This document shows positions 2,055-5,921 of a stretch of DNA of 64,000 nt, in pieces. Under the pieces are notes generated by a model, which worked only from the letters and a program-made list of their open reading frames with translations, ran no database searches and was not told where the DNA came from. The DNA is from Bdellovibrio bacteriovorus str. Tiberius (GTDB lineage Bacteria; Bdellovibrionota; Bdellovibrionia; Bdellovibrionales; Bdellovibrionaceae): positions 3,534,001-3,598,000 of the forward strand of contig NC_019567.1 in NCBI RefSeq assembly GCF_000317895.1. The letters are read 5' to 3'. Both the position numbers and the translations under genes were made by a program. Numbering within the stretch: the stretch's first letter is position 1; every line of letters starts with the position of its first letter.

Positions 2055-4835
2055 CTATTGGCCTTGCTCGTTCTCAGACATAGCTGGAATTCTTTTGATA
2101 TATTTCTTGTAACCGTCACGCCATTCTGAATTCTTCAACTGCTCCTGAGCCAGATTCTTCCAGAACCCGCTCTTGTCACCTTTGAAGTCATTCCAGACCT
2201 CGGCCGCTTTCTGGATCTCACCTGCTTTGAAGTAGATCTGACCCAGTTTGTAACGGATGGAGGAAAGCGGACGATTGTCTTCGTACTTTTCCAGCAGCTT
2301 TTCATAGGAACCTGTCGCCAGATCCTGCTGCTTTTTATTCAGATAGATATCGCCCATCATTTCCAGCGCCTTGGCGTGGATCACCGGGGAAATCTTGCCG
2401 GAATCACTTTGCAATTTGTCGATCATTTCCAAAGACTGGATGGCCTCATCCGGCTTGCTTTGTTTCACCTGAAGTTCGGCAAGTTTCAGATAAGGTTCCG
2501 CCACCAGCTGTGGCTGACCTTTCCAGGTGCGCAGCAATTCGCCCAGATAACGAACCGCGGAATCATTGTCCCCGCGTTTTTCCAGCAGACGAACCGCGAT
2601 GTTCACGCGTTCGATCTGGGATTGTTCGTCCATTTTTTCCGGCGTTTTGATGTTTTTCAGATAGTCATACGCCTGATTGTATTTTTGCTCTTGAGTGAAC
2701 ACATTGGAAAGACGCAGGTTCAGCTCGTCCTCGGAAGGAATCTGCTCTTTCACCTGGATTTCTTTGGCTTCCGCTGTGCCACGAATTGCATAAATACGGT
2801 TCAAAACGTCTTTGTAGTATCTTTCCGCTTCAACCGGAACCCCGGCCATTTCAAACGCACGACCGACATTGTATTTGGTATCCAGACGTTTGGAATTTTT
2901 CAGCCAGTTGTCAGCATATTGACTGTGGGTTTTCAAAGCCTTGATGAAGTTGCCTTCATTGACTTCGGATTCCAGCTTGTCATTGATGTTGGAAATAATA
3001 CGGTTGGTCAGCAATGGAACGTCCACAGAAGTGGGATGTTCTTTATAGTATTTGGAAAGCAGGTCCACCGCTTTTTGGTGTTCACCACGGTGAGTGTAAC
3101 CATCCGCCACCATCACAGTTGCAAACTGCTCGATATTCGGAAGATCAATCTTTTTAGCCAAAGACATGATTTCTTCAACTGCGTGATTTACTTCTTTCGG
3201 TTTCATGCCCTTCATGCGCGCACTCAACAGACGCAAACGTGCAATCACCGCATTCGGAGTTTCACCATAACGGAAGTAAGTTTCAAGGTAAGCCCCCATC
3301 ACGCGGGACTTGTCAGCACCGAAGATTTCAAGCAATTCACCCATACGAGTCATCGCAAATGCCGAATGGTTGCTGCTTGGGAATTTCTTCACGAATTCAC
3401 GATAGGTGTCCAGACTTTGCGGGTACTTGTTCATCATGAACAAAGATTCCGCCTGATTGAAGAACGCATTCGGGTAAGAGCCCTGCCCTTCCGGATATTT
3501 CTTCAAAGCTTTCTGATATTCATCAACGGCTTTTGCATAGTTCTTGCCGCGAACCCAGACATCACCACGACGGTAAGCCGCTTCCACTTTCAGATCGCGA
3601 TTGGTCGCTTCTTTTTCAACCTGATCAAACTGGGCAATCGCATCCGTCCATTTGTTCAGCTTCATGAAAGCCAAACCCATGCCCAAACGCGCCAGATCCT
3701 TTGATACAGATTCTTTTCCGGAGAAATTTTTATTGTCGATGTGTTCCTGGAACTGGCGCAGGGAATTCAACGCATCGCCTTTTTCCAAAGCCAGGAAGCC
3801 CGTCTTAACTGACGTTCTTTCCGCCAGAGCAGAACGCGGATACTTTGCGACGGCTTCCTTATATTTCTGCATCGCCTCGTCATAATCTTTCATGCGGCCT
3901 TCTTCCTGCCACAGAGCCAGGTGAACATCGGCGGTCATGAAATCAATGACTTCGTTGTATTCAGATTTTGGATATTTGTCTTTGAACCAGGCTTGAGTTT
4001 TCAGATAAACGCCATAGCGCTGCTTTTCAAAAAGCGTCAAAAGCAAACGAGCCTGTTTGTTTTCTTCCGTGGACTGCGGGGAAATCTGATAGATCGCCGG
4101 AGTGATCTTCATTTTCTCCCAGTAACTAACTGGAGTTTCCAGCATCGGGAATGGGATATAATAGTTATCCTTGGCGCGAATCATCGCCTCTTCTTTGATC
4201 TCATAGTCTTTAACAGAGAAGCGGGAATATTCCGGGTCACCACCGTCGAAGATACCGGATTTCACAGAATCATTAGCGACAAAACCCACACCCTGATCCG
4301 CAATCGCCAAAGTATCAGCTGCTGGCTTGCGGTTCTTATCAGTTTTAGCTTTCGCTACAGGTTTCACGTCTTTAGCAGGCAGCTCGGTCGGAATCTGTGT
4401 GTCTTTCTTAGCAACCGCTTTGCTGTCTTTTTTCGGTTTCGCCGATGGATTCAAATAGAAATCCATGATCAGGCGAGAAGGCTGATCCGTCAGGTAATCA
4501 AATGTCTCGATGTCTTCACCAGAAAGGGTGAACTGAATCACGTTCTTGCCATCCGGACCCTTGCGATCCACGGCAACAGCTGTCACGAAATCACTTTTAA
4601 AGGAGGAAAGAGAACCAATCGTGGATTCATCCAACGCAGGCACGGTCATTTCAACGACAACCTGACCTTTTTTATCAAGGCGTTTGACGTCGTAATCCCA
4701 ATTTTGCTGACCCGACAGTTCCATGTGAACAGTGTCGCCCTGAAAATTAATGATTCCATTGACCTTCGCCGCTTGCGCTGAAGCTAGACCAAAGAACAGG
4801 CATCCTGCCACGATCAAATTGCGTAAAGTGTTCAC
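2055..4835 (-). CDS. Large periplasmic TPR-repeat protein heading the flagellar operon
   Basis: A protein of about 926 residues with a signal peptide (LIVAGCLFFGLASAQA). A beta-rich N-terminal region of about 100 residues resembles an AMIN-like domain (RLIMDFYLNP), followed by a Lys/Ala/Pro-rich linker. From about residue 260 to the end there are many TPR-like helical hairpins (for example YRRGDVWVRGKNYAKAVDEY). TPR domains of this type scaffold protein complexes in the envelope. I prefer the GTG at 4835, which has AAGGGG 8 bases upstream; an in-frame ATG at 4877 is the alternative but has a poor ribosome site. It is 8 bases upstream of the AAA+ gene and probably co-transcribed with flgBC-fliE. 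A role in flagellar assembly or positioning is inference from context. Confidence 0.75.
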   Translation of the reverse strand: MNTLRNLIVAGCLFFGLASAQAAKVNGIINFQGDTVHMELSGQQNWDYDVKRLDKKGQVVVEMTVPALDESTIGSLSSFKSDFVTAVAVDRKGPDGKNVIQFTLSGEDIETFDYLTDQPSRLIMDFYLNPSAKPKKDSKAVAKKDTQIPTELPAKDVKPVAKAKTDKNRKPAADTLAIADQGVGFVANDSVKSGIFDGGDPEYSRFSVKDYEIKEEAMIRAKDNYYIPFPMLETPVSYWEKMKITPAIYQISPQSTEENKQARLLLTLFEKQRYGVYLKTQAWFKDKYPKSEYNEVIDFMTADVHLALWQEEGRMKDYDEAMQKYKEAVAKYPRSALAERTSVKTGFLALEKGDALNSLRQFQEHIDNKNFSGKESVSKDLARLGMGLAFMKLNKWTDAIAQFDQVEKEATNRDLKVEAAYRRGDVWVRGKNYAKAVDEYQKALKKYPEGQGSYPNAFFNQAESLFMMNKYPQSLDTYREFVKKFPSSNHSAFAMTRMGELLEIFGADKSRVMGAYLETYFRYGETPNAVIARLRLLSARMKGMKPKEVNHAVEEIMSLAKKIDLPNIEQFATVMVADGYTHRGEHQKAVDLLSKYYKEHPTSVDVPLLTNRIISNINDKLESEVNEGNFIKALKTHSQYADNWLKNSKRLDTKYNVGRAFEMAGVPVEAERYYKDVLNRIYAIRGTAEAKEIQVKEQIPSEDELNLRLSNVFTQEQKYNQAYDYLKNIKTPEKMDEQSQIERVNIAVRLLEKRGDNDSAVRYLGELLRTWKGQPQLVAEPYLKLAELQVKQSKPDEAIQSLEMIDKLQSDSGKISPVIHAKALEMMGDIYLNKKQQDLATGSYEKLLEKYEDNRPLSSIRYKLGQIYFKAGEIQKAAEVWNDFKGDKSGFWKNLAQEQLKNSEWRDGYKKYIKRIPAMSENEQGQ

Positions 4836-4955
4836 TCCTTGAACCCCTTCTCTTCCCTTCGTTCTGCTATTGCACATACGGTGCCACCTCTTTCAAAGGT
4901 CCATTGGCAAATAATTTCCAGATGGGCAAAAAGTTTCATAGAATTTCCAACACCC

Positions 4956-5126
4956 CCGCCAAAACGCTGACGGCTGACGACCCGGCCCTTGGCAGGGGCT
5001 TAGGCAATCCAGCCGCTTCAAACAGTCCTCGCGGACGCCGTCCCGTTGGGACGTGCTGCTGCGGAACTCGCGTCTGGCTTGCCTAAGCCCCTGCCAAGCG
5101 CCTGGTGTGCCGGCAAATTTTGGCGG
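4956..5126. repeat. Long inverted-repeat element A (hairpin-forming, shared core)
   Basis: Perfect 20-base arms at 4988-5007 and 5079-5098 (CTTGGCAGGGGCTTAGGCAA and its complement) extend inwards to a 27/29-paired stem at 4988-5016/5070-5098. An outer 9-base arm pair lies at 4956-4964 (CCGCCAAAA) and 5118-5126 (TTTTGGCGG). The enclosed core (about 5017-5068) contains a perfect 5-base hairpin at 5040-5052 and is closely similar to the reverse complement of the core of element B. No credible gene is present. It lies between the flagellar operon start and the mla operon. Confidence 0.8.
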
Positions 5127-5241
5127 TATCTGGGGTGCACGCTTTGCGTGTTCCCTGAACTTTTTCTACGCGCTAACGAGAGCTCTCGGTAGGGCGCTAG
5201 AAGCAGTGGGGGAATTCGGATTTTGAAAGGTGATACGGCTT

Positions 5242-5375
5242 GGTCTAGGGGGAGTGGGGAGAGCGGTGGTGGCCCAGCCCCAAGTTCCGCAGCAGCAGGT
5301 CCCGCAGGGATCGCGTCCGCGAGGATGTGTTCGAAGGGGATGGGGCGCCACCGCTCTCCCCACTCCCCCTAGACC
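5242..5375. repeat. Long inverted-repeat element B, opposite orientation, core shared with A
   Basis: Perfect 28-base arms at 5242-5269 and 5348-5375 (starting GGTCTAGGGGGAGTGGGGAG and its complement) extend inwards to about 33 of 35 paired positions (5242-5276/5341-5375). The loop region, read on the minus strand, matches the core of element A (shared words CCTCGCGGACGC and TGCTGCTGCGGAACT). The arms are unrelated in sequence to those of element A. The rest of the 4836-5438 gap holds a 12-base palindrome (CGAGAGCTCTCG, 5177-5188) and nothing else recognisable. Confidence 0.85.
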
Positions 5376-5438
5376 GAGGCACTGTTTCGCCGTACAGACT
5401 CTGGATTTTTCCTCAATTTATTCCGATGGATGGGTGCT

Positions 5439-5921
5439 ATGAAGAACATCTTTGTTGTTTGCATCTTGAGTGCTTTGGTTGTTAGTTGTGTGTCGGTGAA
5501 TTTGCCGGGGCGGAAATCTGTGCCTGCCAAGGGTGTCGAGTTTTCTTCGCCTGCCGCGCCTTTTAAATCTATTGATGCTGCCAATTCCGACAAAGCCTGG
5601 TTGAGTTCATCCACCGGAAATACAATTTCCTTTGTTTCTGATTGTGGTGGGTCGGATCCTTCGCTTCAGCAAATGGAAACAGAGTCTTTGGCGGCGCTTT
5701 CTAATTTGGATGTTAAATCTGATACTTTGATGTTCAACGGTCGCGAGGCTCGTCAATCCGTGGCTGCGGGCACGGTGGATGGCATTCCGGTGCAGCTTTC
5801 TCTTTTGGTGTTTAAGAAAAATAACTGCAACTATACTTTGAGTTACGGTGGCGTTCAGAAGCAGTTTGCGGCTGAACAAAAGCACTTTGAAGACTTTAAG
5901 GCTCAGTTTAAGGCTCCGTGA
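5439..5921 (+). CDS. Small lipoprotein, first gene of the mla operon
   Basis: A protein of about 160 residues with a lipoprotein signal (MKNIFVVCILSALVVSC; the Cys would be lipidated). I do not recognise the mature domain. It contains two further cysteines that could pair (SDCGG and NNCNY) and has no membrane segment. The ATG at 5439 gives a normal signal peptide; an in-frame ATG at 5430 adds only three residues. Its stop overlaps the mlaE start (ATGA), so it is translated with the lipid-transport genes and may be a periplasmic accessory part of that system. That role is inference. Confidence 0.7.
   Translation: MKNIFVVCILSALVVSCVSVNLPGRKSVPAKGVEFSSPAAPFKSIDAANSDKAWLSSSTGNTISFVSDCGGSDPSLQQMETESLAALSNLDVKSDTLMFNGREARQSVAAGTVDGIPVQLSLLVFKKNNCNYTLSYGGVQKQFAAEQKHFEDFKAQFKAP

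Follow-up and report, generated by a model that had tools for sequence, protein, structure and literature searches.

Two inverted repeats with a common core

The analysed window (the whole 64-kb stretch of DNA from Bdellovibrio bacteriovorus str. Tiberius) contains two inverted repeats, termed here A and B, which were the only ones above the threshold used in the repeat search. Both lie between a 940-codon minus-strand open reading frame (ORF; 2055-4877) and a small ORF on the plus strand (5430-5921), each of which starts towards the elements; these neighbours are taken from ORF reading, not from annotation. The initial annotation, made by eye, had described two opposed elements sharing a core, and the repeat search found them again, with 0 long inverted repeats in 20 Markov shuffles of the window. 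The arms are 37 nt long and 89% complementary in A and 43 nt long and 91% complementary in B (Table 1), and the folding z-scores relative to shuffles are -8.8 and -9.1, respectively. When one of the two cores is reverse-complemented, they are 83% identical over 52 nt (5026-5077/5274-5325), close to the visual estimate of about 50 bases at about 85%. The arms of A are unrelated in sequence to those of B. In A, residual inverted similarity (CCGCCAAAA...CGGC) is seen outward of the arms, at about 4963-4982 versus 5107-5126. Inward-facing pairs some 250-650 bp apart include, besides A/B, L135/L149, L116 and one in genome G016 (C153).

Table 1. Coordinates of the features of elements A and B in the window.
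Feature	Position	Strand	Remarks
A, left arm	4980..5016	+	perfect part 4988-5007; repeat search
A, 5' core edge TTCAAACAG-TCCTCGC	5017..5032	+	TCCTCGC at 5026-5032; little or no variation across 33 aligned copies of type I
A, apical hairpin (type I core; inner stem covaries)	5033..5059	+	helix 3, paired in 97% of cells
A, 3' core edge TGCGGAACT(C)	5060..5069	+	aligned type I copies
A, right arm (complementary to the left)	5070..5106	+	perfect part 5079-5098; repeat search
Spacer between inward-facing A and B	5107..5238	.	A/B pair also in G001, G004, G007 (L010, L011, L025)
B, right arm (core orientation)	5239..5281	-	perfect part 5242-5269; repeat search
B, 3' core edge TGCGGAACT(T)	5282..5291	-	core comparison
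B, apical hairpin	5292..5318	-	core comparison
B, 5' core edge TTCGAACACA-TCCTCGC	5319..5335	-	TCCTCGC is the complement of 5319-5325; core comparison
B, left arm (core orientation)	5336..5378	-	perfect part 5348-5375; repeat search

Distribution of the family and its core types

A and B belong to a family of palindromic DNA elements scattered through Bdellovibrio genomes. The family is present in 23 of the 24 genomes of the genus, with about 2-22 copies per genome among the matches listed; these counts, taken from the listed matches of a covariance model (R1) and of a two-edge pattern, are lower bounds, as copies with edge changes are missed. A DNA search with the core gave matches in 15 of the 24 genomes, whereas R1 and the edge pattern each gave matches in 23, the reversed-pattern control being 0 in every one of those. 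At least 20 R1 matches occur in the window's own genome. The core is thus dispersed across the genus rather than confined to this site. At least four core types were distinguished, all with common edges TTCGGACAG-TCCTCGC ... TG(C)GGAACTYG: type I (about 43 nt, of the form GGACG-hairpin-GCTG), type II (about 57-61 nt) and two further types of about 90 nt.

Outside Bdellovibrio, the family is clearly present in two genera. An order-wide pattern scan of 141 genomes singled out genome G108 (22 matches, control 0), followed by G059 (4) and G039 (2), the others being near the control level; R1 confirmed the first two but not G039. Among the matches listed from a GTDB-wide pattern scan were Bdellovibrio and six hits elsewhere (L075-L078, L080 and L090), those without long arms. 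Hits in Nocardioides, Streptomyces, Chloroflexi and other organisms outside Bdellovibrio were taken as chance, long matching arms being absent, and L076, with a short partial repeat only, was left out of the family. Phage, plasmid, viral and E. coli collections, from which records near this genome may be missing, gave 0 matches, nor did any phage, plasmid or viral contig match as it would for a phage or plasmid repeat. No paper describing the family was found in the literature searched (coverage was partial), and the family appears here as an undescribed one. Runs of N stand between or beside matching arms at L326, L327 and L222; since these are perhaps assembly gaps at hairpins, draft assemblies may undercount the family.

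Core anatomy and covariation of the arms

In the type I core the segments ACA, TCCTCGC, ACG, CTGCTG and GGAACT are invariant and the apical stem covaries. All 17 aligned arm pairs have changes on both sides, with a covariation score of 0.484 (0.186 for shuffles and 0.10-0.30 for slid versions). The early observation that arm sequences are unrelated between copies while pairing is kept is therefore borne out, and the expected combination of many dispersed copies with covarying arms was found. Covariation of this kind is what is asked of a structured non-coding RNA, but an inverted duplication followed by correction would give the same signal.

The arms had also been called perfectly matched. 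This holds for the perfect parts given in Table 1, but not for the inner 10 bp or so, where systematic mismatches recur throughout the family, clustering at two points no more than about 10 nt from the tip; at arm positions 11-22 mismatches amount to about 0-4%. Changes from the left arm to the mirrored right arm are mostly C>A, T>G, C>T and A>G, an asymmetry that leaves A.C and C.U on the core strand and G.U and G.A on the other, and that may represent a recognition feature or a strand clue. Because the inner-arm mismatches are position-specific and strand-asymmetric, a part of the stem is under some constraint, which counts against the scheme proposed below.

Three copies (L025 in G007, L032 in G014 and L184 in G004) carry an extra domain of ~65 nt at ACAG^TCCTCGC, which ends in a near-perfect small palindrome with differing arms and the common loop CATCATG.

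Arms private to each copy

The privacy of the arms is best seen among 15 copies in G108, apparently the product of a recent burst. Their cores are 0.92 identical to one another, while left arms of different copies share 0.40 identity (0.38 for shuffled arms) and left and right arms within one copy 0.97. As the cores are alike and the arms random, the arms are either not carried with the core or wholly changed at each move. Non-orthologous arms have no match beyond short stretches. Arms searched in the window's own genome, G001, G059 and G108 matched themselves, their inverted partner or an ortholog, further matches being weak or apparent assembly duplicates. A role of the arms as guides or spacers was rejected, no other convincing match being found in these four genomes and no match to the A/B region among phage, plasmid and E. 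coli records.

Arms mirroring gene and tRNA ends

Where an element adjoins a tRNA or the end of a gene, its left arm consists of the sequence native to the site: stop codons, the 3' end of a tRNA or the beginning of a reading frame. Its right arm repeats the left one inverted, and decayed similarity continues into the gene. Filled tRNA-Leu sites were listed from many species. In all of those listed except L356, which has lost its right half, the arms extend to the 3' end of the tRNA, and at least some of that end reappears mirrored in the right arm (about 21 nt of tRNA, with decay, at L130, L150 and L160). L326 and L327 were counted among these by their arms alone, with N gaps where the core would be. 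For protein genes, the 3' tails at 46 sites were compared with the symmetric right flank in inverted orientation. The mean score was 7.89, against 5.55 in the flanks of other elements (sd 1.24) and 5.74 without inversion, the value of 7.89 being inflated because the reading frames at L145, L025, L010 and L169 may be spurious. The mirroring is clear by eye at L123, L135/L149, L017 and the thiolase site L024, and inverted similarity persists outside the arms (z 9.0). In G108, the end of a 418-codon ORF, with its last codons and TAA stop, is mirrored at L208, and REP modules known also as singlets form arm ends; at L133 the left arm contains the start of the downstream reading frame.

Taken together, the mirroring of tRNAs, gene ends and REP modules and the case of L133 indicate that the left flank is native and the right arm copied. 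For elements with no gene to mark the native side, A and B among them, we infer the same left-to-right direction. On the other hand, many arms in G108 end at a common motif (GTCTCAAARTGA) or at REP modules, which purely flank-derived arms do not predict and which counts against such an origin.

At L355 (G007, tRNA-Leu C) the tRNA 3' end is followed by a 12-bp near-perfect mirror (GCACCAACTTTC..GAAGGTTGGTGC) around a loop of 8 nt, and a core is absent.

Orthologous sites, empty sites and losses

The window's own genome (G000), G001 and G004 have nearly all sites in common. Between species, arm identity tends to lie at one of two levels, about 97% or about 70%, on both sides together. Mean identities in the species comparisons are 0.967 for the core edges, 0.944 for the left flank and 0.816 for the right flank. 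In 18 of the 37 comparisons both arms are replaced (left-left identity <0.8), with the core edges (0.94) and the left flank (0.93) kept, so that the two arms change in concert.

At L139 the window's own genome lacks the element and has the left-arm hairpin alone, and at L328 (G021, tRNA-Leu A) a left arm stands at the tRNA with no mirror. Both look as empty sites should, yet they could be deletions, and truly ancestral empty sites are few. Losses are seen at the thiolase site of the window's own genome (a deletion derivative with both outer arms kept and the core gone) and at L183 and L356, where only left halves remain. At L329 (G005) a new element adjoins the right-hand remnant of an older one.

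Alternative explanations

The initial annotation read the matched but unrelated arms as compensatory evolution of a structured element. In its RNA form (an sRNA or 3' UTR element) this would make the core a functional motif and let the arm helices drift with compensation under selection for pairing. Such a reading draws on the strong covariation, on the conserved junction strands beside a covarying apical stem, and on orthologous sites that are stable in three species; it would also suit the many copies right after a same-strand stop codon or tRNA, the terminator-like hairpins with T runs in some type II and III cores, and the paired variable segments that in G059 alternate with conserved internal loops. 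The pair covariation stands, but RNA compensation is not the best inference from it, because near-identical G108 cores carry unrelated arms and, at tRNA and gene-end sites, the right arm is the adjoining gene end inverted. Moreover, arms are replaced between species in jumps, the mirror copy runs into tRNA and coding ends, 27 of ~100 copies lie between divergent ORFs, and 0 of 8 mapped HD100 attack-phase sRNAs from a published list coincide with a copy. Rfam provided no family, its only matches being below gathering scores (miRNA families and Dictyoglomi-1). We therefore consider a selected RNA structure rather unlikely. An HDV-like ribozyme, suggested by the shared UCCUCGC heptamer, had no Rfam support and was rejected. 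The same placement after gene ends, together with the terminator-like character of some arms (L002, L139) and some cores, could also be taken to mean that these are non-mobile elements with a decorated loop, acting as long intrinsic terminators or protecting mRNA 3' ends. This is very improbable: a terminator has no need of a conserved tip of 45-90 nt, many copies occupy divergent intergenic regions, and only 17 of 80 left arms fold alone better than z -1.5, which also disposes of the idea that the left arm is always a terminator.

A mobile element of another kind, in which a RAYT or other HUH nuclease moves the whole hairpin as single-stranded DNA, as for REPINs, with hypervariable arms and tip mismatches marking the strand, would fit those G108 copies that bear REP modules at both outer ends, as well as a core-less REPIN with the same REP in that genome. 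The position-specific inner mismatches are comparable to the bulge needed by E. coli REPs (PMC8266576), and Y1 genes occur in 21 of the 24 genomes. However, REP ends are missing from the remaining G108 copies and from those of Bdellovibrio, non-orthologous sites share no arms, and tRNA and CDS ends are mirrored. None of the ten Y1 loci examined is flanked by the element, so that a RAYT partner was rejected, and three element-bearing genomes have no Y1/RAYT match. We regard transport of the whole hairpin as unlikely. More generally, among reverse transcriptases and Y1/RAYT proteins, no transposase or other enzyme was found to track the element. The proposed template for a reverse transcriptase is not upheld either, nor is a retron-like element with a linked enzyme or copying by a dedicated one, as PF00078 occurs in only 4 of the 24 genomes of the genus and is absent from the window's own. 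Genomes G013 and G015 each have ten to twelve Y1/RAYT-like genes.

Proposed mechanism

Private arms and mirrored gene ends, as read from sequence comparison, suggest that the flank was duplicated in inverted orientation, not that compensation proceeded step by step. A scheme in which the core inserts, the left flank is copied by fold-back, and the palindrome is later corrected within itself would, in our judgement at about even confidence, explain the family. The sole inherited and spreading unit would be the apical core (about 45-90 nt, with its conserved edges). Landing beside a gene, it would have the sequence on its left (a gene or tRNA 3' end, a terminator or a REP unit) copied inverted onto its right: the folded core would place its 3' end by the left flank, and a polymerase would copy about 40-100 nt and then go back to the chromosome. 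The resulting hairpin would have a conserved tip, and its arms would be private to the site. Repeated template switching within the palindrome would then keep the arms matched, both changing together. Template switching has been proposed as a process that can both give rise to perfect stems and contribute to their upkeep (PMC8794818). Core mobility, fold-back copying and such correction are what we infer. The scheme explains at once why arms are private, matched and gene-mirroring; it leaves unaccounted the arm-end motif of G108, the source of new left-arm sequence in replacements, and the movement of the core.

Comparison with known systems

In REPINs, the inner part varies with pairing kept by compensatory changes and the ends are conserved (PMC3116915), and conserved stem mismatches matter in E. 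coli REPs (PMC8266576). The present family resembles REPIN/REP-RAYT systems in being dispersed and intergenic, with a long hairpin whose pairing is kept despite variation, but the layout is reversed: the tip is conserved and the arms, tens of bp long and often mirroring the adjacent gene end, are private. REP sequences at both outer hairpin ends were found only in a subset of G108 copies, the ends in Bdellovibrio being site-private. Hairpins made by template switching (quasipalindromes; PMC8794818) are alike in that one event can make a perfect stem and later events can keep it matched; those are sporadic mutations, whereas here the event recurs with a conserved core at the tip, about 2-22 times per genome.

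The family is also short, non-coding, dispersed and intergenic, as are MITE-like elements (ERIC, Correia/NEMIS). These inherit terminal repeats that are common to copies; the arms described here are neither inherited nor common, their identity between copies being that of shuffled sequence. Any target-site duplication, as seen with such elements, would be hidden by an inverted copy of the flank. In integron attC sites the folded strand is kept despite a variable stem, unpaired bases mark the strand, the loop varies and the ends are conserved. The family shares the kept fold, the variable stem sequence and the strand-marking unpaired bases, but its loop is the conserved part.

It is possible, if short of probable, that the family represents a new class of mobile DNA in bacteria: a structured tip would be all that is inherited, the arms would be copied backwards from the site and the folded tip would act as its own primer. 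If so, a short non-coding element spreads by building long palindromes from host sequence, and many natural test sites are at hand (orthologous sites with replaced arms, tRNA ends, G108). Stems that pair perfectly while differing in sequence are usually taken to prove that RNA structure is under selection; the Bdellovibrio elements are a counter-case, with strong covariation that a DNA copying process may produce.

Other palindromes were seen near or beside the family. Downstream of the member L027 (G021) lies another long palindrome with a different core (GTGTGGGCTAGGAGGGGGCTGAAGCAC ...). At L272 (G108, C158) a core of another kind (GCGAGTTTGGGTGGTGCGCAGCTCGC...GAGCAGTGCTGCTGCCCACC) is surrounded by a REP module and arms of about 95 nt; it may represent a second family of tips that behaves in the same way.
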